Of a stretch of 64,000 bases of DNA, positions 179 through 58,619 are shown one piece after another. The notes under the pieces are model-generated. The model searched no databases and was not told where the DNA came from. It worked only from the letters and a program-made list of their open reading frames with translations. Position 1 is the stretch's first letter. Each line of letters starts with the position of its first letter. Position numbers and translations under genes: made by a program. This stretch comes from Parabacteroides sp. PF5-9 (lineage in GTDB: Bacteria > Bacteroidota > Bacteroidia > Bacteroidales > Tannerellaceae), in contig NZ_JARXWG010000002.1 of NCBI RefSeq assembly GCF_029893105.1, forward strand, positions 1-64,000, written 5' to 3'.

Positions 179-195
179 TTGGCACTCCTTTTGTT
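179..195 (+). promoter_or_regulatory. sigma-54-like promoter of htpG
   Basis: The sequence TTGGCACTCCTTTTGTT has GG at 181-182, exactly ten bases, then GT at 193-194. The sigma-54 consensus is TGGCAC(G)-N4-TTGC(A/T), so the -24 half is exact and the -12 half has GT instead of GC. The predicted start near 205 would give a leader of about 70 bases before the ATG at 276. The match is imperfect; a better one lies in front of clpC. Confidence 0.45.
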
Positions 196-275: not shown

Positions 276-2330
276 ATGAGCAAACAAGGAAACATTGGTG
301 TAACAAGTGAAAACATCTTCCCTATCATTAAGAAGTTTTTGTATAGTGATCAGGAGATCTTTCTTCGTGAACTGGTTTCGAATGCAGTTGATGCTACTCA
401 GAAGTTGAAAACCCTCTCCTCTGTAGGCGAATTCAAAGGTGAATTGGGTGATTTAACTGTTCATGTAAAATTTGATGATCATACAATTACCATATCGGAT
501 CGTGGTATTGGTATGACAGCAGAAGAAATCGATAAATACATTAATCAGATCGCTTTCTCCGGCGCTGAAGAATTTGTCGAAAAATATAAAAATGATGCTG
601 CTTCTATTATCGGTCATTTCGGATTGGGTTTCTATTCTTCGTTTATGGTAGCCAAGCGGGTGGAGATCGTGACCAAGTCGCACAAAGAGGGTGCAGTAGC
701 GATGAGATGGAGTTGCGAAGGTTCCCCGGAATATACCCTTGAAGAGACGGAAAAAACAGATCGTGGGACCGACATTATACTTCATATTGACGATGAAAGC
801 AAGGATTTTTTAAATAAAGAAAGACTGAATGGTCTGCTTACAAAATATTGTCGTTTCTTGCCTGTTCCCATTGCATTTGGAAAAAAACAGGAATGGAAAG
901 AGGGAAAATATGTAGACAGGGATGAAGATAATATAGTCAATGATACTACGCCGGCATGGGTACGTAAACCGGCTGACATGAAGGATGAAGATTATAAAAA
1001 ATTCTATCAGGATCTTTATCCGATGAGTGAAGAGCCGCTTTTCTGGATTCATCTGAATGTCGATTATCCGTTTAATTTAACAGGTATATTGTATTTCCCT
1101 CGAATAAAAAGTAATCTTGATCTGAATAGAAATAAGATACAGTTGTATTGTAATCAGGTATTTGTTACTGATTCGGTTGAAGGTATTGTGCCCGAATTCC
1201 TCACACTTTTGCATGGTGTATTGGATTCACCGGATATTCCTTTAAACGTATCTCGTTCGTATTTACAAAGCGATCAGAATGTTAAAAAAATCTCTTCGCA
1301 TATCACAAAAAAAGTAGCAGATCGTTTGGAAGAAATTTTTAAAAACGACCGGAAACAGTTTGAGGAGAAATGGGATAGCTTGCGCTTATTCATTCAGTAT
1401 GGTATGCTTTCGGATGAGAAATTCTATGATCGTGCTGCAAAATTTGCTTTGTTAAAAGATGTGGATGACAACTATTTTACTTTTGAGGAGTATAACACAT
1501 TAGTCAAAGAAAATCAAACCAATAAAGAGGGCCATTTGATCTATTTATATACAAACAGTAAAGAAGATCAATACAGCTATATTCATGCAGCCAAAGATAA
1601 GGGATACAGTGTCTTAATGATGGATGGTCAATTGGATACTCACCTGATCGGTCAATTGGAGCAAAAATTTGAAAAAACACAATTTGTGCGTGTCGATAGT
1701 GATACGGTTGATAATCTGATCCGCAAGGATGATGCAGGAAAGGTTGAACTGCTTGAAGATCAGAAAACAGCTTTGCAGGAGATGTTTAAAAGTCAGATGC
1801 CGCAAGTGGATAAGGTTGATTTTTATGTCACATTTGAGGCGCTTGGAGAAAAGGCGAATCCGATTATGTTGACACAGAGTGAATATATGCGTCGTATGCG
1901 TGAGATGTCGGCGATGCAACCGGGAATGTCATTCTATGGTGAGCTTCCGGATACTTACAACCTGGTGTTGAATACAGATCATTCATTGATTAAAGAAGTG
2001 CTTTCCGAAGAGGAGAAAAACTGCAATGAAAAGTTGGCTCCAATACAGGCCGATATCAAAGGTTGGGAAGCGCGTCTAGCTGATCTTCGCGAAGCGCAAA
2101 GTAAAAAGAAGGAGGAGGAAATCTCCAGTCAGGAAAAAGAGGATTTATCCGATACGGAGAAAAAGTTAAACGAATTGCGTGATCAACAAAAAAGTATTCT
2201 TGCAATGTATGCAGGTACAAATAATATGATCAATCAGTTAATCGATTTAGCGTTGTTGGGCAACGGCATGTTGAAAGGAGAAGCGTTGAGTCGCTTTATT
2301 AAACGAAGTGTTCAAATGATCGGAAAATAA
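276..2330 (+). CDS. htpG: Molecular chaperone HtpG (Hsp90)
   Basis: Cytosolic ATP-dependent Hsp90 chaperone, 684 residues. The N-terminal GHKL ATPase domain shows the ATP-site motifs FLRELVSNAVDA (about 27-38), DRGIGM and GHFGLGFYSSF. The middle and C-terminal Hsp90 domains follow. It is longer than the usual 620-640 residues because of a lysine/glutamate-rich, probably coiled-coil insertion near residues 590-645, which I associate with Bacteroidetes HtpG. The ATG at 276 (MSKQGNIGV) is preferred over an in-frame TTG six bases upstream. It is followed by a strong hairpin terminator and preceded by a sigma-54-like promoter. The gene appears monocistronic. Confidence 0.97.
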   Translation: MSKQGNIGVTSENIFPIIKKFLYSDQEIFLRELVSNAVDATQKLKTLSSVGEFKGELGDLTVHVKFDDHTITISDRGIGMTAEEIDKYINQIAFSGAEEFVEKYKNDAASIIGHFGLGFYSSFMVAKRVEIVTKSHKEGAVAMRWSCEGSPEYTLEETEKTDRGTDIILHIDDESKDFLNKERLNGLLTKYCRFLPVPIAFGKKQEWKEGKYVDRDEDNIVNDTTPAWVRKPADMKDEDYKKFYQDLYPMSEEPLFWIHLNVDYPFNLTGILYFPRIKSNLDLNRNKIQLYCNQVFVTDSVEGIVPEFLTLLHGVLDSPDIPLNVSRSYLQSDQNVKKISSHITKKVADRLEEIFKNDRKQFEEKWDSLRLFIQYGMLSDEKFYDRAAKFALLKDVDDNYFTFEEYNTLVKENQTNKEGHLIYLYTNSKEDQYSYIHAAKDKGYSVLMMDGQLDTHLIGQLEQKFEKTQFVRVDSDTVDNLIRKDDAGKVELLEDQKTALQEMFKSQMPQVDKVDFYVTFEALGEKANPIMLTQSEYMRRMREMSAMQPGMSFYGELPDTYNLVLNTDHSLIKEVLSEEEKNCNEKLAPIQADIKGWEARLADLREAQSKKKEEEISSQEKEDLSDTEKKLNELRDQQKSILAMYAGTNNMINQLIDLALLGNGMLKGEALSRFIKRSVQMIGK

Positions 2331-10776: not shown

Positions 10777-10930
10777 CGCATACTTTTTTGTTAGAGGTAC
10801 GTCTAAAATATTTTAGACGTACCTCTAAACGGATTTACACCTACCTCTAAATGGATTTACACCTACCTCTAAATGGATTTAGACGTACCTCTAACAAAAA
10901 ACAGAGGTACGTCTGACAGAAAATAGATTT
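10777..10930. repeat. Array A: tandem 22-bp palindromic units
   Basis: Seven consecutive 22-base blocks end exactly in register: 10777-10798 (left end block), 10799-10820, 10821-10842, 10843-10864, 10865-10886, 10887-10908 and 10909-10930. The block at 10799 is a perfect palindrome (half-site ACGTCTAAAAT plus its mirror). Others pair ACCTCTAAA on the left with TTTACACCT or TTTAGACGT on the right, differing mainly by G/C swaps. The left end ACTTTTTTGTTAGAGGT and the ACCTCTAACAAAAAA of the sixth block are near-mirror images. It lies between two convergent genes. Array C is a homologous copy. Confidence 0.85.
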
Positions 10931-24379: not shown

Positions 24380-24526
24380 TTTCTTATCTATTTATGGGCA
24401 CAAAGATAAGAAATGTAGGAGGATTCGTAAAATTCGTTTTTTTACTGCCCGTGACTCTTATCTGTTTTATTCAAATTCATTCGTTTATTGAAGCTTATAC
24501 CTTCTCTTTTTGGCTTCGTAAGTTAA

Positions 24527-24614
24527 TCGTCTACCAATTGGAGCCCGATCGTCTACCAGTTGGATCACTTTCGTCTACCAACTGTGTCACTATCGTCTAC
24601 CAATTGGTAGACGA
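24527..24614. repeat. Array B: four tandem 22-bp palindromic units
   Basis: Four exact 22-base units at 24527, 24549, 24571 and 24593. The last is a perfect palindrome (half-site TCGTCTACCAA plus its mirror). The other three keep the left half (TCGTCTACCA) but have decayed right halves. The array is bracketed by TTAA on both sides. Period and outer half-site core (CGTCTA) match array A, but the inner bases differ. The 24380-24680 gap contains only this array and the upstream ABC-F promoter. Confidence 0.85.
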
Positions 24615-34144: not shown

Positions 34145-34276
34145 GCGACACTTTTTTGTTAGAGGTACCTCTAAAATGTTTTACACCTACCTCTAAATCG
34201 ATTTAGAGGTACCTCTAAATTTGTTTAGACGTACCTCTAACAGAAAACAGATGTAGGTGTAACAAAAATAGAACTG
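34145..34276. repeat. Array C: tandem 22-bp palindromic units, homologous to array A
   Basis: Six 22-base blocks in register: 34145-34166 (left end), 34167-34188, 34189-34210, 34211-34232, 34233-34254 and 34255-34276. The block at 34189 is a perfect palindrome (half-site ACCTCTAAATC plus its mirror). Left and right end blocks match those of array A (ACTTTTTTGTTAGAGGT and ACCTCTAACA.AAAACAGA), so the whole module is shared, while the number and order of inner half-site variants differ. It lies in a divergent promoter region, unlike array A. Confidence 0.85.
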
Positions 34277-47329: not shown

Positions 47330-49936
47330 TTACTCTTGATTTAAATCTTCATTTTCTTCCTGGCTGTCCGTGTTTGCGGATGTTGGATCGGTTGGATCAA
47401 CATCTGTAGGTAGACCGCTTTCATGTATCGCCATCTCCTGAAGCGCATCACGTTCCGCTTTTTCTTCAGCTATTTTCTCGTCATTTTCAGTCAGCACTTT
47501 ACAGACCGAAGCAATCTCATCATGACGTTTGCCCAGATTGATCAAACGCACTCCTTGAGTGGCTCGGCCAATCACGTTAATATCTGCAACCTTCATGCGG
47601 ATTGTTATACCTGATTTGTTGATAATCATCAGGTCATTCTCATCCGTAACATTTTTGATCGTAACAAGTTTTCCTGTTTTATCCGTAATTTGAATGGTTT
47701 TAACACCTTTACCTCCTCTGTTGGTTATACGGTAATCTTCAATATGCGAACGTTTTCCGTATCCTTGTTCCGATACGACAAGAATTGTTTCGGCTTCCTT
47801 GTCTTTAATCGTAATCATTCCTACTGCTTCATCCGTTTTATCATCGTCTAAAGTCATCCCCCTAACCCCGGAGGCTGTACGTCCCATTGTACGTACTTTA
47901 CTTTCATGGAAACGGATGGCACGGCCATTTCGGTTGGCAATGATCACTTCATTGTCACCATTCGTCATTTTAACCTGGATCAGGCCGTCGTCTTCACGCA
48001 GTGTAATTGCATTCACTCCATTTTGACGTGGGCGGGAATAAGCTTCCAACAATGTTTTCTTGATCACCCCTTTCTTTGTACAGAAGAGCAGGTAGTGTGA
48101 ATTGATAAAGTCGATATCTGTTGTCAATTTCTTCACGCGAATAAACGCCTGAATCCGGTCTCCTGCTTCAATATTTAACAGGTTCTGGATCGCACGTCCT
48201 TTTGCATTCTTCGTGCCTTCGGGTATTTCGTATACTTTCAGCCAGTAACATTTACCACGTGCTGTGAATATAAGTAATGTAGCATGCATGGATGCCGGAT
48301 AAATATATTCCACAAAATCTTCATCACGCGTTTCCGATCCCTTAGCACCGACTCCGCCACGTCCTTGTGCACGGAATTCGCTCAACGGTGTACGTTTGAT
48401 ATACCCCATATGCGAAATAGTGATAATCATCTCATCATCGGCATAGAAATCCTCCGGATTCAATTCTTCCGAAGCGTATATGATTTCAGTTCTGCGTTCA
48501 TCGCCATATTTATCTTTGACTTCCTGTAGTTCATCTTTAACGACTTGCATACACAAATCTTCGTTCTCCAGGATCTCTTTTAAATAGGCTATCAGTTTTT
48601 CAACCTCTTCATATTCTGCACGCAATTTGCTCTGTTCCAGACCGGTCAGCTGACGAAGTCTCATTTCGACAATCGCACGAGCCTGTATTTCTGAAAGCGA
48701 AAAACGATTCATCAAATTGTCGATCGCTTCTTGTGGATTTGTAGAAGCACGAATAATCGCAATGACTTCATCAATATTATCCGAAGCAATAATCAATCCT
48801 TCCAGAATATGCGCTCGCTCTTCTGCTTTCTTGAGTTCGAAACGTGTACGACGCATCACCACCTCTTGGCGATGATCAACAAATGCTTTAATCTGGTCTT
48901 TCAGGTTCAACTGGCGCGGACGTCCGTTGACAAGTGCAATATTATTCACACTGAACGACGATTGTAAAGCCGTCAGTTTGTACAATTTATTTAATACGAC
49001 GCTGGAATTGGCATCACGTTTGATATCAACAACGATGCGCATTCCTGTACGGTCGGACTCGTCGTTGACATTCGAAATACCATCCAATCGCTTTTCGTTG
49101 ACCAGATCAGCAATGTGTTTGATCAACTCCGCTTTATTCACCAAATAAGGTATTTCGGTAATAACAATTTTTTCATGATTGTTTTCAAACTCGATCTCTG
49201 CTTTCCCGCGAAGAATAACGCGTCCCCTACCCGTTTCAAAGGCATCTTTTACTCCGGCATAACCATAAATGGTTGCACCTGTCGGGAAATCCGGTGCTTT
49301 AACATATTCCATTAATCCTTCTACGTCGATTTCTCCACGCGAATCGATATATGCGATACATCCGTCCAATACCTCGCTCATATTGTGAGGAGCCATATTG
49401 GTTGCCATACCGACAGCAATACCGGAGGCACCGTTGACTAAAAGGTTGGGTATACGTGTGGGTAATACAGTCGGTTCTTTCAGGGTATCGTCAAAGTTCA
49501 GCTGAAAATCAACCGTGTCTTTATCAATATCCCGAAGCATCTCTTCCGCCATCTTACTCAACCGAGCTTCCGTATAACGCATAGCAGCAGGGCTGTCGCC
49601 ATCGACTGATCCGAAGTTACCCTGACCATCGACTAAAGGGTAGCGCAAGGACCACCGCTGAGCCATTCTAACCATCGCATAGTAGACGGATGAATCTCCG
49701 TGTGGATGATATTTACCTAAAACTTCTCCAACTATTCTGGCAGATTTTTTATAAGGTTTATCGGATGTGTTCCCCAATTCATTCATACCAAATAATACAC
49801 GCCGATGAACCGGTTTGAAACCATCCCTCACATCAGGAAGCGCACGCGAAACGATCACAGACATTGAGTAATCAATGTAGGCCGATTTCATCTCTTCCTC
49901 GATGTTAATCTTTATAATTCTGTCTTGATCAACCAT
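47330..49936 (-). CDS. gyrA: DNA gyrase subunit A
   Basis: An 868-residue type II topoisomerase breakage-reunion subunit that, with GyrB, introduces negative supercoils. The catalytic Tyr is Y121 ([10 protein letters not shown]). The C-terminal DNA-wrapping propeller carries the GyrA-box region ([13 protein letters not shown]). The quinolone region reads [17 protein letters not shown], with S82 (E. coli S83) retained. The acidic C-terminal tail ([13 protein letters not shown]) is common. Only gyrA is here; gyrB is not in the window. It diverges from clpC across array D. Confidence 0.98.
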
Positions 49937-50134: not shown

Positions 50135-50222
50135 TCGTTTGATAACTGTCGAACGATCGTTCTATAATTATCAAACGATCATTCGACAATTGTGAAATGA
50201 TCGTTTGACAGATGTCAAATGA
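50135..50222. repeat. Array D: four tandem 22-bp palindromic units
   Basis: Four 22-base units at 50135, 50157, 50179 and 50201, each starting TCRTT and ending AAYGA. The consensus half-site is TCGTTTGACAA plus its mirror. Individual units are imperfect palindromes. The outer half-site is close to that of array B (TCGTCTACCAA). The array is 140-230 bases upstream of the clpC sigma-54 promoter and about 200 bases upstream of gyrA. Confidence 0.82.
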
Positions 50223-50363: not shown

Positions 50364-50379
50364 TGGCACGGATTTTGCT
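50364..50379 (+). promoter_or_regulatory. Sigma-54 promoter of clpC
   Basis: TGGCACGGATTTTGCT matches TGGCACG-N4-TTGCW at every fixed position. GG at 50365-50366 and GC at 50377-50378 are separated by exactly ten bases. The predicted start near 50390 leaves a leader of about 44 bases. This implies RpoN and an AAA+ activator control clpC in this organism; array D lies at enhancer-like distance upstream, though a link is not shown. Confidence 0.75.
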
Positions 50380-50433
50380 GTTTAGATACAAAGAGTTTAT
50401 TAAATTTGCATAGTCTACATTTATATATAAAAG

Positions 50434-53013
50434 ATGAAAAATAACTATTCACAAAGATTGATCGATGTCATTGAATACGGCCGCGAAGAGGCTGTCAGAT
50501 TACAAAACAGTTACATCGGGCCAGAGCACTTAATGCTTGGGATCATTCGGGATGGTGAGGGAAAAGCCTTGCAGCTATTGCATGATTTGAATACAGATGT
50601 ATTAGATATAAAAAGAGAGATAGAAAACGAAATCAGAAATACATTTGATTCTGAAGAACCTATCCAACAGGAAATCTCAATCAGCAAAATAACCGAACGT
50701 ATACTGCGTATGAGTATGCTGGAATCACGAATCTTTAAACACGAAGAAACCGGAACAGAACATTTGCTTTTGGCGATATTAAAAGAAGAGAAAAATCTGG
50801 CAGCTAAAATATTGAATGATGCCGGTGTGAGTTATCGTGCCGTACACAATTGCCTGATCAGTAGTGAAGGATTGACTCACTATGAAGAGGTCGATGAAAT
50901 CAGTGACGGATATACTGACGATGATGACGATGAAGAAGAGGATGACAGTTTCTCCGGACGTCGTGAAAATCGACCGGGCTCAGGAGCGGCACAAGGTAAA
51001 TCGCCTAACGATACGCCCGTATTGGATAACTTCGGTACCGATATGACTCGAGCCGCTGCTGAAAACAGATTGGATCCGATTGTTGGACGTGAGAAAGAGA
51101 TTGAACGGCTGGCACAAATCCTGAGTCGACGTAAGAAAAACAATCCGGTATTAATCGGAGAACCCGGCGTGGGTAAATCGGCCATTGTTGAAGGGTTGGC
51201 TTTACGTATTGTTCAACGGAAAGTATCACGCATTCTGTTCGACAAACGGGTAATAAGCCTTGATATGGCCTCTATTGTGGCAGGAACGAAATATCGCGGA
51301 CAGTTTGAAGAACGTATTAAAGCGATTCTGAATGAGTTGTCTAAAAATCCGAATATCATCTTATTCATCGACGAGATCCATACGATTGTCGGTGCCGGTT
51401 CGGCCTCCGGATCCATGGATGCGGCCAATATGTTAAAACCGGCTCTGGCACGTGGAGAGATACAATGTATCGGTGCAACAACATTGGATGAATACCGGAA
51501 AAACATTGAAAAAGACGGTGCTTTGGAACGTCGTTTTCAAAAGGTTATTGTAGATCCGACCACAGCGGAAGAGACCTTGCAAATCCTGAGAAATATCAAA
51601 CCAAGGTATGAAGAGCATCATAATGTCATTTATACGGATGCGGCACTGGAGGCGTGTGTCAAATTGACAGAACGTTATATCAGTGATCGTAATTTCCCGG
51701 ATAAAGCGATCGATGCGTTGGACGAAGCCGGCTCCCGGGTTCATATTTCCAATATTATCGTACCCAAAAGCATAGAAGAATTAGAAGCAAAAATTGAAGA
51801 TACTAAAGTCGAAAAATTAGCTGCTGTTAAGTCGCAAAACTTTGAATTGGCAGCCAGTTTCCGGGATAAGGAACGCCAATTCCTCTTACAGCTTGAAGCA
51901 GCCAAATCGAAATGGGAACAGGAGATGCAGGAACATCGTGAAACGGTGGATGAAGATAAAGTGGCAGAAGTGGTCGCCATGATGTCGGGTGTACCTGTTC
52001 AGCGTATTGCTACGGCTGAAAATATCAAGCTATTGGAAATGGGTGAAATACTCAAAAAGCAGGTGATTGGACAAGATGAAGCTGTTCAGAAAATCGTGAA
52101 AGCGATACAGCGTAATCGGGTCGGTTTAAAGGATCCCAACAAACCGATCGGTACATTCATGTTCCTTGGTCCTACTGGTGTAGGGAAAACACACCTGGCA
52201 AAGAAATTGGCAGAGTATCTGTTCGACTCCTCCGACTCATTGGTGCGTATTGATATGAGTGAGTATCTGGAAAAATTTGCTGTGTCCAGATTAATCGGAG
52301 CTCCTCCGGGATATGTCGGATATGAAGAAGGTGGACAATTGACCGAAAAAGTACGTCGCAAACCCTATTCTGTCGTTTTATTGGACGAAATAGAAAAAGC
52401 ACATCCGGATGTATTCAACCTACTCCTACAGGTTTTAGATGAAGGGCGTCTGACAGATAGTCTGGGACGTCGGATTGATTTTAAAAATACGATATTGATC
52501 ATGACATCCAATATTGGAACCCGCCAACTGAAAGATTTTGGTCGCGGTGTAGGTTTCAATACCCAGGGAGGTGATTCGGATAAGGATTTCTCTCGTGGAG
52601 TGATACAAAAAGCGTTGAATAAAGCGTTTGCCCCTGAGTTCCTGAATCGTGTAGATGATATTATCATGTTTGACCAGTTGGATAAAGAAGCGATCCATAA
52701 GATTATAGATATCGAACTGGAAGGACTGTATAAACGCGTTTGCGCATTAGGTTATGAATTGGTGATCACAGGAGAAGCAAAAGATTTCATCGCCTCAAAA
52801 GGATATGATGTTCAGTTTGGAGCTCGTCCATTGAAACGAGCCATTCAGAAATACCTGGAAGATGAAATGGCGGAAATGATCATTCGTGCTTCTGTGGGTG
52901 AAGGCGACCAAATTGTTGTCGGATTTAATAAAGAGGAACAACAAATCGTCACAGAAGTGGTGAAAAGAGATCCGATCGAAGAAACGAATCCGGAGACAAC
53001 GCCGGAAGGGTAA
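50434..53013 (+). CDS. clpC: Clp protease ATPase ClpC
   Basis: An 859-residue Hsp100 unfoldase with two AAA+ modules that feeds substrates to ClpP or disaggregates proteins. An N-terminal Clp_N repeat domain (about 1-150) with an acidic linker (DDDDEEEDD, about 160-170) is followed by AAA-1 ([22 protein letters not shown]), a UVR-type middle region (about 445-500) and AAA-2 ([22 protein letters not shown]). The UVR-like segment favours ClpC over ClpA/ClpB. The sigma-54 promoter indicates stress-specific control. A terminator hairpin follows. Confidence 0.96.
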
Positions 53014-53080: not shown

Positions 53081-55426
53081 TTATTCGGTTTTAATACTAT
53101 CTACCGGATTAGCATTGGCAACTCTCCAACTTTGAAATGTGACGGTTATTGAGGTGATTACTAAAACAATCAGAAAAGCTAGTATAAAAACCCACCAGTA
53201 TATCGGTGTTTTATAAGCAAAATTTTCCAGCCAACGTGAAATGGAATAATAGGCCACTGGAGCAGCAAAAACAAAACAGAAGAACACGATCCGAAAGTAG
53301 CTGGTATTGAATAGAATCAGTATCTCTTGTGTTGTTGAACCTAATACTTTTCGGACACCAATCTCTTTTTTTCGGTACTCACTTTCAAAAACTACTAATC
53401 CGAAAACTCCTACAATAGAAATAAAAATAGCGATCAAACTGAATAATGTAATCTGTGCACTTAAACGTCTTTCCTTTTCATACGTACTATTTAAAACCGA
53501 ATTATAAAAACGGATGTCAAAAGGATATTCGGAATCAAAGCTTATTAAGGTTTCCTGTACATGTTTCATCGCTGTTCGTAGATCAGAACCTGCTTTTACT
53601 TTTACATAGGCATATTGGGGTTGATTACCCCAGTTTTCGGTTCCCCACACATAAAAGGCCATCGGAGTCGTCTCTGTCCGGAAAGAAGAGAACTTAACAT
53701 CTGGCATGAACCCTATAATTTTTATCCCTTCGATCTCTTCATCTAACTCTAATGCAAAATCATGACGCGCTCGCTGGTTAAAGATAAATACGCCATTTTT
53801 TGTCAATTGATCCTCTTCGCGAAAATTACGCCCCTCTAAAACGTCTATTCCTATCACTTCCAGAAAAGAGGCATTAACAGGTAAACATTGAAAAACGATA
53901 TCTTTGTCCCGGAATTTTCTTCCCCACCCCATATATTGATCCTGACTGGATAACAGATTCTCCGAATAGGTCACTCCATCAATACCAGCAAACGACTGGA
54001 TTTGATTGGAAAAAGCATCCCTGTTTTTATTTATTGTGCGATTGATATTCGTTACAATCAGTTCGTCTTTGTCATAACCCAGAGACGAATTTTGCATGTA
54101 ATAATTTTGCAAATACATAAATGAAGCTCCTATAATTAATGCAAAAGAGGCCATAAACTGGATACCGATCAAGATACTTCTTAATTGCTTGCCTTTGGGA
54201 GATAAACCAAAACCTCCTTTTAAAACCAATGCTGGAGGAAATGAAGTCATATAATAAGAGGGATAAAGACCTGCCAACAGACCTGTAACTAGGGCAATCA
54301 CCAATGTACTAATAACGATATACGGGTGAATAAGGATAGAAATATCGGCATCAATTAAGTGAACGGCCGGAGTAAATTGAAGCAAATGCACAAACCCCAA
54401 GGCGATTAAAAATGAGATAAAACAGATTATCATTGCTTCAATCACTAAAGAAAGTCGAATTCTATGTTCGTTCTCACCCAACACCTTTTGCGTATTTATG
54501 CTTTTTATGCGCATGGGAGTTAATGCCGTACTGAAATTGGTAAAATTAATTCCACCAATCAAGATAATCACAAATGCAATCCCCAATAAGACTAAAAGCG
54601 TCTGTTTACTTGTTTTGGGGGCAAAATCGTATGTAGCATCATTTATGAAATGAATATCATTGATATTGGTTAATCGCTGACCAGCATCTCCTACCCACTT
54701 ATAATTCTCATTTAAAGTGTTCCAGTCAAAATTTCTTCTGAAATTGTCGATTAAATGAATGCTGTTTTCCGGTTGGTCAACCCGTATATAAAGTTCATAA
54801 TTACTGTTTCCCCAACTATTAATATTTTCATTTGCCGGTATAGAGAGATAAATCCCGTTTTTCACGATTGAATTTTTAGGAAAATCTTTATACACCCCTC
54901 CTATTGTATAATTCTGAAATTCTGTATGAATCACTTTATTGACAGCAGAGACCTGACCAAACATTTTCTGAGACAGACTGAACGGGATCAATATTTTTTC
55001 CGGATCTTCCAACGCTTTTCCTGAGCCTTCCAATAGATCAAATTCGAAAACATCCATATAAGACGGATAGACTCTGATTATACTTTCTTCAAAAGTATGT
55101 CGGTTACCGTTGTTTTCAACGGAAAAAAACATCTCACCTCCAAAAGAACTTGAAATAGCCCCAGCTACAATATGTGGAGAAGATTGGATAATGACATCTG
55201 CCAAAGGACGAGATATAATTGCTTGCGCCTGACTGTCCCATGTCAATTCTACCCGATAAATACGATCCCAATTGTGATGCATTTTATCAAAATTGTAATC
55301 ATAATCCAGTTGCATAAAAATGACCATAAAAGCCATAAATGCAACGGATAAACCTAAAATATTTAGAACTGTGGCTGTTTTAAAACGCCTTAAGATGCTC
55401 AGAAAATTGCGTATAATAGTCTTCAT
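53081..55426 (-). CDS. FtsX/MacB-type ABC transporter permease (paralog 1)
   Basis: A 781-residue permease with an N-terminal membrane helix, a large periplasmic MacB_PCD domain (about 45-280), two FtsX membrane blocks (about 285-450 and 670-775) and a second periplasmic region between them. Such permeases work with a cytosolic ATPase to move or extrude lipids, peptides or antibiotics, or to use mechanotransmission. The closest relative is the adjacent permease (paralog 2): beginnings (KT.LRNF..ILRRFKTAT.LN) and ends (VTFQSW.VANANPVDSIKTE) are nearly identical. Last gene of the cluster; it ends 67 bases from the clpC stop. Confidence 0.9.
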   Translation of the reverse strand: MKTIIRNFLSILRRFKTATVLNILGLSVAFMAFMVIFMQLDYDYNFDKMHHNWDRIYRVELTWDSQAQAIISRPLADVIIQSSPHIVAGAISSSFGGEMFFSVENNGNRHTFEESIIRVYPSYMDVFEFDLLEGSGKALEDPEKILIPFSLSQKMFGQVSAVNKVIHTEFQNYTIGGVYKDFPKNSIVKNGIYLSIPANENINSWGNSNYELYIRVDQPENSIHLIDNFRRNFDWNTLNENYKWVGDAGQRLTNINDIHFINDATYDFAPKTSKQTLLVLLGIAFVIILIGGINFTNFSTALTPMRIKSINTQKVLGENEHRIRLSLVIEAMIICFISFLIALGFVHLLQFTPAVHLIDADISILIHPYIVISTLVIALVTGLLAGLYPSYYMTSFPPALVLKGGFGLSPKGKQLRSILIGIQFMASFALIIGASFMYLQNYYMQNSSLGYDKDELIVTNINRTINKNRDAFSNQIQSFAGIDGVTYSENLLSSQDQYMGWGRKFRDKDIVFQCLPVNASFLEVIGIDVLEGRNFREEDQLTKNGVFIFNQRARHDFALELDEEIEGIKIIGFMPDVKFSSFRTETTPMAFYVWGTENWGNQPQYAYVKVKAGSDLRTAMKHVQETLISFDSEYPFDIRFYNSVLNSTYEKERRLSAQITLFSLIAIFISIVGVFGLVVFESEYRKKEIGVRKVLGSTTQEILILFNTSYFRIVFFCFVFAAPVAYYSISRWLENFAYKTPIYWWVFILAFLIVLVITSITVTFQSWRVANANPVDSIKTE

Positions 55427-55438
55427 CTCTACGGATTA

Positions 55439-57781
55439 TTATTCGGTTTTAATACTATCTACCGGATTGGCATTGGCAACCTGCCAACTTTGGAAAGTAA
55501 CCGTTGCTGTTGTTATCATAGTCACTAACAGAAACGAAAGTGCGAACACCCACCAATACACCGGTGTTTTATATGCAAAGTTCTCCAGCCAAATACGGAT
55601 GACATACACTGCAATCGGTATTGCAATCACAAAACAGATCGTTAATATTTGTACGTAACGGGAGTTAAACATCGATAAAATTTCTCCGGTAGTGGAACCT
55701 AATACCTTTCGGATACCGATTTCTTTTCGTTTATACTCACTCTCAAACACCACCAGTCCGAAAACACCTACGATAGAAATTAATACGGCTATCAGACTGA
55801 ACCAAGTGATCAATGAGGTCATGTTTTGTTCTTTTTCATATAAACGATGAAGTATATCGTCATATAATCTTACATTAAAAGCATATTCCGGAGAAAGACT
55901 ATTTAATGTACTTTTGACATGAGCAATGGCTGCCGACATATCCGTATTCGCTTTTACGCGTATATACGCCCATTTATTCCCGGAAAAATAATAGTCGTTG
56001 ATAAGGATAAAAGCCATAGGTTCTATTTTATGTCGTAAGGAAGTGACATTAATATCCGGTATAAAACCAATTACTTCACCATTAGACAATTTATCCCCTA
56101 CAGAAAAACCAAATTCGCGCCGGGCCGATTCATTAAAAATATAGTATGATTTTTCCCCTTCATTCCGATCGCTTTTAACAAAATCTCTTCCGGCTGTTAA
56201 TTGAATATCCATTGTTTTAAGAAAGTTCAGATCAACCGCTAATACCTGAAACATATAATTCTCTCCTTTCACTTCTCGCGACCATTTAGAATAATAATCG
56301 GAACTTGATAACAGATCACCAGCCAAAGCAACACTCTCGATATTAGAAAATGCCAAAAGTCCGTTTTCGAAAGCTTCCTGGGATTTTCGGATATCATTAT
56401 TCAGATCTGTAATGATGATCTGATCTTTATTGTATCCTAAAGATGTTGTATGTACATATCTTGTTTGCAGATACATAAACATGGCGACAACAATTAAAAC
56501 AAATGAGGTAACAAACTGTATTCCCATCAATGAATTACGTAATTTGCGACCTTTAGGGGATAAACCAAAACTACCTTTTAATACCAGAGCAGGAGTAAAA
56601 GAGGTCATATAGTAGGCAGGATAAATTCCGGCAAAAAGTCCAACAACCAATGCCATTATTCCGGCAATCACCACCAGTTGAATATGGTCGAACAACGCAA
56701 TATTAATATCCAGTAATGTATTCAAAGAAGAAAGGGATAATAAATGAACTAAACCAATGGCAATCAGCCAGGATATAAAACATATTCCGACAGCTTCTGT
56801 TACTAATGAGCCTCTGAGTCCTTTTTCTGATGCCCCCAACACTTTTTGCGTATTGATACTTTTAATACGTAGAGGTGTTAGTGCAACACTATAATTCGTG
56901 AAATTAATCGTTGCAATCAGCAAAATGACAAAAGCAATACCCACTAATACAAGTAATGTCGATTTACTGGTTTTATTGACTGTGTCAAATTGCATATTTG
57001 TATTAAAATGGATCTGCGTAAATGGAGTGAAATGACATTCTATATTCATTCCGGATTCTTCCCATTGGCCTTTATACTGCTCAGCAATGTGAAGTTCAAG
57101 TATTTCTGCAGAAGAAGGATGATCTAAACGTAGATACGATTCATAATTTAAATTATTCCATTCGGTAATGTCTTTTTCCGGGTTAATCTCTTTATAGATG
57201 ACGTTGGCCACGGAGGTGTTTGACGGAAAATCACGGTATACCCCGCCGATTGTCCAACGAAATGTTTCTCCGATCAATAGCTTATTCAAGGCCATATTAT
57301 TACCAAACATTTTCCGGGCCATACTCTCAGGAATCAACACCGTATTCGGTTGTTCTATAGCATTGGACAGTCCTTCTGTCATCTCAAACTGAAAAACATC
57401 CGGAAACCCTTTAGACACATCTATCACTTTCTCCGAGTACCAATCTTTACTCCTATTTTGTTCGACATAGAAAAAGCTATTATTGACAGATGCCTGCATA
57501 GCCGAAACGATAGCGCCTGCTTCTATATGTGGAGAATCCTTTAACAGGTTTTCCAATAATGGCCGGGATGTAATCGCATAATGCTCCCCATCAATCACAG
57601 TCTCAATCCGAAAAATACGATCTGCGTTTTTTACGGATTTATTAAATCCCAGATCATAAGCAATCTGCATCATTATAATGATAAAGACACTAAAGGCAAC
57701 TGATAATCCGGCGATATTTAAAAATGTTGCTGTTTTAAACCGTCTTAATATATTCTGGAAGTTTCGTAGGATTGTTTTCAT
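55439..57781 (-). CDS. FtsX/MacB-type ABC transporter permease (paralog 2)
   Basis: A 780-residue permease with the same layout as its downstream neighbour: MacB_PCD, two FtsX blocks, C-terminus ANANPVDSIKTE. The ATG at 57781 (MKTILRNFQNILRRF) is chosen; the longer frame from 57811 is less likely. Over the last 42 bases of coding sequence the two paralogs differ at one position, while the bases just beyond diverge strongly, pointing to tandem duplication with conversion or selection. It is 12 bases upstream of paralog 1 and is probably co-transcribed. Confidence 0.9.
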   Translation of the reverse strand: MKTILRNFQNILRRFKTATFLNIAGLSVAFSVFIIIMMQIAYDLGFNKSVKNADRIFRIETVIDGEHYAITSRPLLENLLKDSPHIEAGAIVSAMQASVNNSFFYVEQNRSKDWYSEKVIDVSKGFPDVFQFEMTEGLSNAIEQPNTVLIPESMARKMFGNNMALNKLLIGETFRWTIGGVYRDFPSNTSVANVIYKEINPEKDITEWNNLNYESYLRLDHPSSAEILELHIAEQYKGQWEESGMNIECHFTPFTQIHFNTNMQFDTVNKTSKSTLLVLVGIAFVILLIATINFTNYSVALTPLRIKSINTQKVLGASEKGLRGSLVTEAVGICFISWLIAIGLVHLLSLSSLNTLLDINIALFDHIQLVVIAGIMALVVGLFAGIYPAYYMTSFTPALVLKGSFGLSPKGRKLRNSLMGIQFVTSFVLIVVAMFMYLQTRYVHTTSLGYNKDQIIITDLNNDIRKSQEAFENGLLAFSNIESVALAGDLLSSSDYYSKWSREVKGENYMFQVLAVDLNFLKTMDIQLTAGRDFVKSDRNEGEKSYYIFNESARREFGFSVGDKLSNGEVIGFIPDINVTSLRHKIEPMAFILINDYYFSGNKWAYIRVKANTDMSAAIAHVKSTLNSLSPEYAFNVRLYDDILHRLYEKEQNMTSLITWFSLIAVLISIVGVFGLVVFESEYKRKEIGIRKVLGSTTGEILSMFNSRYVQILTICFVIAIPIAVYVIRIWLENFAYKTPVYWWVFALSFLLVTMITTATVTFQSWQVANANPVDSIKTE

Positions 57782-57881
57782 CTTTTTAGGATATAAAGGT
57801 TGTAAGTACATCTTATCTTCACAGGTAAGATGTACCCAATTAAACTAATCTTAAATTCTCAATTAAACTAAAACCAACAAA

Positions 57882-58562
57882 TCAAATAAATTCGCTTACC
57901 GAAGAGACAATGCTACCATCAAACAAGTTGATGACACGGTGAGCAAAACTTGCATCATGTTTGGAGTGGGTTACCATAATAATGGTCGTTCCTTCCTTAT
58001 TCAGTTCAGTTAGTAATTGCATCACCTCTGCCCCGTTTTTAGAATCCAGATTACCGGTCGGCTCATCAGCAAGGATCATCTTCGGGTTGGAAACAACCGC
58101 ACGGGCTATGGCAACACGTTGTTGTTGACCTCCTGAAAGCTGTTGTGGGAAATGGGCAGCACGATGACTAATATTCATTCGTTTTAATATTTCAGTGACC
58201 ATTTGTTTCCGTTCCGCAGCTTTAATCTTCAGGTAAGTTAACGGAAGTTCCACGTTTTCGAACACATTCAATTCGTCGATCAGGTTAAAACTCTGGAATA
58301 CAAAACCGATATTACCTTTACGCACCTGTGTCCGTTCCCGTTCTTTTAAATGCCCGACTTCCAGTTCTCCCAGGTAGTAATCCCCTTCGGATGGATTGTC
58401 TAATAATCCCAATATATTCAGCAAGGTTGATTTCCCACAACCAGATGGGCCCATAATAGCCACAAATTCACCGTCTTTTACTTCTAATGATACTTTATTC
58501 AAAGCAATTGTTTCCACTTCTTCCGTCCGGAAAAACTTACTTAAACCTTCAATTTTAATCAT
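57882..58562 (-). CDS. ABC transporter ATP-binding protein, MacB/LolD type
   Basis: A 226-residue ATPase with Walker [10 protein letters not shown] (about 38-46), Q-loop, signature [14 protein letters not shown], Walker [16 protein letters not shown] and the H-loop [10 protein letters not shown]. It is the only ATPase in a cluster with four permeases, so it likely serves all of them. Promoter sequence just upstream is sigma-54-like, and it lies 100 bases upstream of the paralog 2 permease on the same strand. Confidence 0.94.
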
Positions 58563-58601: not shown

Positions 58602-58619
58602 AACCAAAGAGTGTGCCAA
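58602..58619 (-). promoter_or_regulatory. Sigma-54-like promoter of the ABC ATPase gene
   Basis: On the minus strand TTGGCACACTCTTTGGTT has GG at 58617-58616, ten bases, then GG at 58605-58604 (consensus GC). The -24 half is exact. It would start transcription near 58592, about 30 bases before the ATG. An inverted repeat lies upstream at 58672-58690. Confidence 0.5.

Follow-up and report, generated by a model that had tools for sequence, protein, structure and literature searches.

The clpC locus and its upstream region

The stretch of DNA analysed here, referred to throughout as the window, comprises positions 1 to 64,000 of contig NZ_JARXWG010000002.1 of Parabacteroides sp. PF5-9. On its forward strand, at 50434–53013, lies an open reading frame of 859 amino acids for a ClpC-type AAA+ unfoldase, in which we recognised two Clp_N stretches, the AAA and AAA_2 modules, ClpB_D2-small and a UVR motif, the last just above its Pfam cut-off (22.2 versus 21.5 bits). 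The protein does not reach the NCBIfam cut-off for ClpA or that for ClpB, and this combination of domains and scores bears out the identification of the gene as clpC in an earlier, sequence-only reading of this DNA. The upstream neighbour is the divergent gene gyrA (47330–49936, reverse strand), which passes the cut-off of the NCBIfam gyrA equivalogs.

Between the two genes, positions 50364–50379 of the forward strand read exactly TGGCACGGATTTTGCT, an exact match to the sigma-54 −24/−12 promoter element TGGCACG-N4-TTGCT, with GG at 50365–50366 and GC at 50377–50378, 10 nt apart. Judged by TGGCACG-N4-TTGC, which we take to be the sigma-54 consensus, the site agrees at every fixed position, so that the near-perfect match with GG-N10-GC spacing first claimed for this locus is borne out. 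The element ends 54 nt before the clpC ATG. Counting from the C of the −12 box, transcription would start at about 50390, the same position as had been proposed before. At 50401–50408, on the same strand, TAAATTTG matches the consensus of the Bacteroidota housekeeping −7 box (TAnnTTTG) and is likely to belong to a second clpC promoter.

Two further sigma-54-like sites were found in the window by pattern matching. The first, TGGCACTCCTTTTG (180–193, forward strand), lies upstream of htpG, the gene for Hsp90 (276–2330, forward strand; PF00183 and HATPase domains), whose mechanically called reading frame starts with TTG at 270 and which has an ATG at 276; a fold check showed no strong hairpin at this site. 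The other, TGGCACACTCTTTG (58605–58618, reverse strand), precedes an ABC-transporter gene cluster on that strand, comprising an ATPase (57882–58562, PF00005) followed by two permease-like reading frames (55439–57811 and 53081–55426), which from their sequence we take to be FtsX/MacB-like.

A tandem array with a period of 22 bp and 3.9 copies of a dyad-like unit occupies 50135–50219, 145–229 bp upstream of the −24 box. We initially favoured this array as the enhancer of the promoter's activator, as its half-site TGTCAAACGA (reverse strand) was also seen by eye upstream of dnaK in the same genome. The idea was abandoned on three grounds: arrays of the same period and other sequence occur at three further places in the window, unrelated arrays of 21–23 bp lie upstream of clpC in several relatives, and the dyad pattern is not over-represented in the window (5 matches, against a shuffle mean of 6.15). 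The four arrays of the window (10791–10927, 24526–24607, 34159–34240 and 50135–50219) have about 2–5 copies each, and their units differ, except that two share TTAGACGTACCTCTAAATKGAT. The periodic stretches of the relatives (e.g. at loci L023, L024, L044, L053 and L098) are likewise unrelated in sequence, and a period held in common without a common sequence is odd.

Conservation of the element

Taken by itself, a single match to a short consensus is weak evidence, because the core TGGCAC-N5-TTGC occurs 8 times in the 3.69 Mb genome, against 2 occurrences of a reversed control pattern. When up to two mismatches are allowed, 10 matches fall in the window alone, where shuffles give 3.19 on average and 9 at most, and the looser form TGGCAY-N4-TTTG is found 32 times in the genome, against 20 for its reversed control. 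We therefore turn to conservation, for which the 80 clpC relatives from named genomes, less five lacking usable upstream DNA and with the window added, provided 76 regions; the best of these relatives are from Parabacteroides (top identity 88%). The pattern [TCA]GGCA[CT]-N5-TTG, searched over 350 nt upstream and compared with 100 dinucleotide shuffles, was present in 69 of the 76 regions, mostly from Bacteroidales, where the shuffles gave a mean of 0.57 and a maximum of 3, these clpC loci being related to one another so that the counts are not independent trials. On the reverse strand of the same regions the element was found in 2 of 76, and the coding starts of clpC, amounting to 111,720 bases, contained 7 matches. 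When mechanically called reading frames of at least 200 amino acids were examined over the same 350 nt, the element preceded clpC in 64 of 74 cases and reading frames other than clpC and htpG at the same loci in 8 of 293, one of these eight being groEL by sequence.

That GGCA and TTG are invariant across the 69 sites follows from the search pattern, which demands them. Positions that it does not demand are nevertheless nearly fixed (the leading T in 65 of 69 sites, the T before TTG in 63), and those flanking the element are near background. A profile built from 63 sites, with the window's own clpC site excluded, matches the window at this site only (14.7 bits, E 0.0024), and genome-wide, with 150 of 1647 first-look candidates scored, it ranks the dnaK site first and the clpC site third of the 10 reported. 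The strict element is absent from 7 of the 76 regions, two of which (L047 and L079) show a degenerate version at around −100. Conservation in 69 of 76 regions where 0.57 would be expected places the element beyond chance, and a fortuitous match, for all the abundance of the core and its looser form in the genome, retains only a negligible probability. The site before clpC is confirmed as a real sigma-54-type element.

Outside the order the element becomes rare. In a phylum sample whose other members were labelled as of the same class or the same phylum and not of the same order, the strict form preceded clpC in 3 of 27 cases from the same class, where shuffles gave a mean of 0.17 and at most 2, and in none of 13 from other classes. 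A degenerate form (GG-N-A/C and TTG) at 40–95 nt upstream, a range chosen after the results for the strict element had been seen, was found in 10 of 10 regions of one family of the class, f5 (shuffle mean 0.08), in 2 of 2 of another, f4, in 1 of the 15 remaining regions from the class and in 0 of 13 from other classes. The predicted clpC site extends past the order into some families of the class, and none was seen outside the class.

Other genes preceded by the element

Thirty of the 32 genomic matches to TGGCAY-N4-TTTG could be assigned a locus; 12 of them lie outside longer reading frames, and 10 of these 12 have a reading frame starting within 300 nt. The ten downstream frames are clpC, dnaK, clpB, htpG, three ABC/permease genes, one membrane-fusion-like and two TolC-like genes, of which the chaperones and the ABC ATPase of the window were checked by Pfam and the others named from their sequence. 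The export-related sites are that at 58605–58618 (reverse strand) and those at L102, L108, L114, L117 and L121; L117 and L121 share TGTCCG-N2-AA-N-GAACA upstream, which was noticed by eye and is perhaps the site of another activator. In the relatives, 24 of 26 dnaK upstream regions carry the element.

The htpG reading frames of the relatives also carry it in 33 of 42 cases, and we have discounted these as added support, since 30 of the 35 sites checked close a terminator-like hairpin. This hairpin resembles AAAATGTCAG...CTGGCATTTTTTTTG and mostly lies between clpC and htpG, and in 27 of 35 regions a U-G wobble is kept in the pairing of TGGCA with TGTCA, which hints at a fusion of terminator and sigma-54 −24/−12 element at htpG in the relatives. 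Such sites raise the question whether the element before clpC might itself be part of a transcription terminator, whose 3′ arm and T-run look like a sigma-54 site by coincidence, as most htpG matches of the relatives do (a T-run follows TGGCA in most of them); yet only 8 of the 69 clpC sites and 3 of the 24 dnaK sites form the end of a hairpin of this kind, the one before clpC in the window does not (fold −1.2 kcal/mol) and the gene upstream of clpC in the window is divergent, so that this explanation can safely be set aside.

A possible second, housekeeping promoter

According to the available parts of PMC7366714, TAnnTTTG is the −7 consensus and TTTG the −33 element of Bacteroides promoters. 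Between the sigma-54 site and the ATG, TAnnTTTG is present in 41 of the 69 clpC regions (200 shuffles: mean 3.1, maximum 7) and missing from the other 28. Its offset, measured from 17 nt past the start of the element, is 17–22 in most loci of Tannerellaceae type, L030 having 30, and mostly 38–61 in those of Bacteroidaceae type, with about 21 in L050 and L051, 31 in L048 and 69 in L049.

These boxes permit a different account of the whole region, in which TGGCAC...TTTG would be an extended housekeeping promoter, or the site of some other conserved regulator, and clpC would be read solely by the primary sigma factor. The 41 boxes are in keeping with it, as is the arrangement in the window, where the TTTG stands 23 nt before TAAATTTG, near the −33/−7 spacing of Bacteroides promoters in the available parts of PMC7366714. 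However, because the spacing varies by lineage and 28 of the 69 regions lack the downstream box, the TTTG in the −12 box cannot simply be taken for the −33 element of a single housekeeping promoter. The element further shows the bipartite pattern of sigma-54 with fixed spacing, rpoN is present in all 118 phylum members, and the same element stands before dnaK (24 of 26) and, in the Parabacteroides genome, before clpB and export genes. We consider this account, in either form, improbable.

The better reading is that the element very probably functions as a sigma-54 promoter of clpC and is retained across the Bacteroidales, and that clpC probably has tandem promoters, one basal and one dependent on sigma-54. 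With a housekeeping box in 41 of the 69 regions, sigma-54 is unlikely to be the sole route to clpC expression. The earlier proposal of sigma-54 control is well supported by conservation and by the rpoN and activator genes of the genome. In the window the polymerase footprints of the two promoters would be expected to overlap, in which case the two probably exclude each other.

RpoN and candidate activators

The Parabacteroides genome encodes RpoN (PF04552, E 1.2e-52), and rpoN was detected in 47 of 50 genomes of relatives, which cover 50 of the 75 loci. The three in which it went undetected (those of L022, L047 and L090) are metagenome bins or uncultured assemblies that may be incomplete, and L022 and L090 still have the clpC element. 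At phylum scale, a comparison of rpoN presence with that of the site was uninformative, as all 118 members, our genome included, have rpoN.

Six proteins of the genome have full sigma-54 activator domains (PF00158, above 200 bits). Five carry a receiver domain, among them one encoded at C2:67130, on the contig of clpC and about 14 kb beyond it; the sixth (L011, on C14; 395 amino acids) consists of the AAA+ domain and a Fis-type HTH only. Proteins of this receiver-less type were found in 27 of the 28 relatives' genomes scanned. Ten of the 28, a count that depends on assembly completeness, have a single activator (E 1e-30 or better), and in nine of these ten it is of the receiver-less type, with 375–514 bits to L011, where the other kinds of activator compared reach at most 231 bits. 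The tenth, G030, has a receiver-type protein instead. All nine genomes with the receiver-less type as sole activator keep the clpC element; rpoN was undetected in one of them, G044, which is the genome of L090. In all 28 genomes with the receiver-less type (27 relatives and our own), a reading frame with Pfam LptE follows its gene, overlapping it or within 103 nt. The adjacency includes a Chlorobiota bin, and the linkage of an envelope assembly gene with a receiver-less sigma-54 activator is strikingly stable.

A search for the activator's binding site gave different pictures at dnaK and at clpC. Upstream of the dnaK element (loci L170–L194 and L160), within 150 nt, TGNCA-N3-TGNCA was found in 18 of 24 regions against a shuffle mean of 0.37, a figure that is optimistic for dnaK and htpG because the motif was chosen after their regions had been viewed; 13 of the 18 matches are on the forward strand, 25–107 nt upstream. 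We regard this motif as a candidate enhancer of chaperone genes; the region upstream of clpB in our genome contains TGTCAAAATGACA. Searched on both strands, with any first letter and with A also accepted in place of the second T, the motif was found at clpC in 4 of 69 regions, where shuffles gave 1.07 on average and 3 at most, and none lay within 300 nt of the clpC site in the window. Two other forms of an enhancer common to clpC and the chaperones were tried and rejected: TGACA half-sites 0–60 nt upstream are strongly enriched at dnaK, with 19 of 24 regions where shuffles average 2.6 and never exceed 6, but show weak enrichment at clpC, with 17 of 69 against a shuffle mean of 7.3 and a maximum of 14, and a wider-spaced dyad fits 4 of 24 dnaK and 3 of 69 clpC regions. 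With TGNCA-N3-TGNCA in 4 of 69 regions, no enhancer site pinpoints the activator at clpC. The gene may be activated either without a strong enhancer or through another site or activator.

The lptE-linked, receiver-less protein is the best candidate for the activator of the clpC promoter, since it is near-universal and stands alone in nine of the ten genomes with a single activator, the clpC element being retained in each of the nine, and we would put the chance that it fills this role at about even. A receiver-type protein, and hence a two-component system, acting at an equally real sigma-54 promoter is the most serious competitor. Five of the genome's six activators are of that kind, one of them on the contig of clpC; G030 has no other kind, and no enhancer common to clpC and dnaK was identified. 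The nine genomes that have the lptE-linked type only and retain the clpC element tell against it, and we regard this assignment as possible and rather unlikely.

Discussion

We suggest the following course of events at clpC. RNA polymerase with RpoN would bind the −24/−12 element and wait there as a closed complex, which an AAA+ activator would then melt. A housekeeping promoter a few tens of bases downstream, with its TAnnTTTG box, would provide basal transcription, and the two promoters may compete. The likeliest activator would be the receiver-less protein, with its AAA+ and Fis-HTH domains, whose gene immediately precedes lptE, and it would couple the supply of ClpC to stress.

One may speculate further, and tentatively, that much of the core proteostasis response of the Bacteroidales (ClpC and DnaK, perhaps with ClpB and HtpG) is under sigma-54 and served by one ancient, receiver-less, lptE-linked activator, an envelope-coupled, ATP-dependent switch in place of RpoH, HrcA and CtsR. 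Such a system would have two tiers, the chaperones with the TGNCA-N3-TGNCA enhancer and clpC mostly without it. The near absence of dnaK's motif from clpC (4 of 69) counts against a single common regulon.

Known systems offer partial parallels. In the clpC operons of the Bacillota, CtsR represses a housekeeping promoter; the gene is the same there and is also under stress control, but the control is by repression, and CtsR was not found in the Parabacteroides genome. That search is a weak test, its control being positive in just 1 of 14 genomes (Lactococcus lactis) and failing in Bacillus subtilis, which has CtsR. HrcA was likewise not found in the genome, in a search whose control was positive in 7 of 14 genomes. 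PspF of Escherichia coli, a receiver-less AAA+ activator with a Fis-type HTH, serves the sigma-54 promoters of the phage-shock stress response. L011 has the same domain set and differs in its constant neighbour lptE, next to which the Bacteroidales protein is encoded in all 28 genomes that were seen to have it. Nearer to hand, RprY is a regulator of the OmpR type. In Porphyromonas gingivalis it binds the promoter regions of clpB, groES and dnaK and has been proposed as a repressor, and no CIRCE sequences were identified at the heat-shock promoters of that species (available parts of PMC3646045). The resemblance lies in the binding of chaperone and clpB promoter regions in a Bacteroidales species lacking identified CIRCE; the difference is that RprY is a proposed repressor, not a sigma-54 activator, and that clpC is absent from the EMSA probes described in the parts of PMC3646045 at hand.

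For Clp ATPase genes a broader prediction exists, ClpA, ClpB and ClpC all falling under COG0542. An in-silico survey (PMC12316311, PLoS One 2025), in the parts available, reports sigma-54 promoters to be enriched in Bacteroidia and Flavobacteriia at GroES, GroEL, GrpE, DnaK, DnaJ, Hsp90 and ATP-dependent proteases including COG0542, and, citing another reference, describes GrpE and GroES of B. thetaiotaomicron as transcribed in a sigma-54-dependent manner. This prediction at the level of COGs, for Clp ATPases and chaperones, agrees with the clpC site described here. The main text of the survey does not name clpC (0 occurrences), nor do its available parts mention a clpC site, tandem promoters, an activator or an upstream element. 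Sigma-54 at these genes was hence already predicted at COG level; the clpC site with the depth of its conservation, the tandem promoters and the candidate activator next to lptE do not appear in the available parts of PMC12316311 or among the matches listed. Among the matches listed, judged by titles and the starts of abstracts, there was no experimental study of rpoN or of the clpC promoter in Bacteroidales, and in the literature searched no paper combined sigma54, Bacteroidetes and clpC, most subscription journals lying outside the scope of both searches. The main texts of PMC12596196 and PMC7366714 mention neither rpoN nor clpC (0 occurrences each), and that of PMC3162934 contains neither "Bacteroid" nor clpC (0 each).

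The regulation of clpC proposed here departs from the usual associations of its sigma factor. Sigma-54 is best known for functions in nitrogen metabolism, motility and the envelope. Its control of core proteostasis would be unusual, even if the available parts of PMC12316311 point the same way. Heat-shock control in the Bacteroidota is poorly understood, P. gingivalis being without identified CIRCE in the parts of PMC3646045 available and our genome without detected HrcA. A clpC promoter kept across the Bacteroidales would offer a testable answer to the question of how protein clean-up is controlled in these bacteria, and such a promoter, together with a near-universal candidate activator, may make the heat-shock control of the Bacteroidota experimentally tractable.
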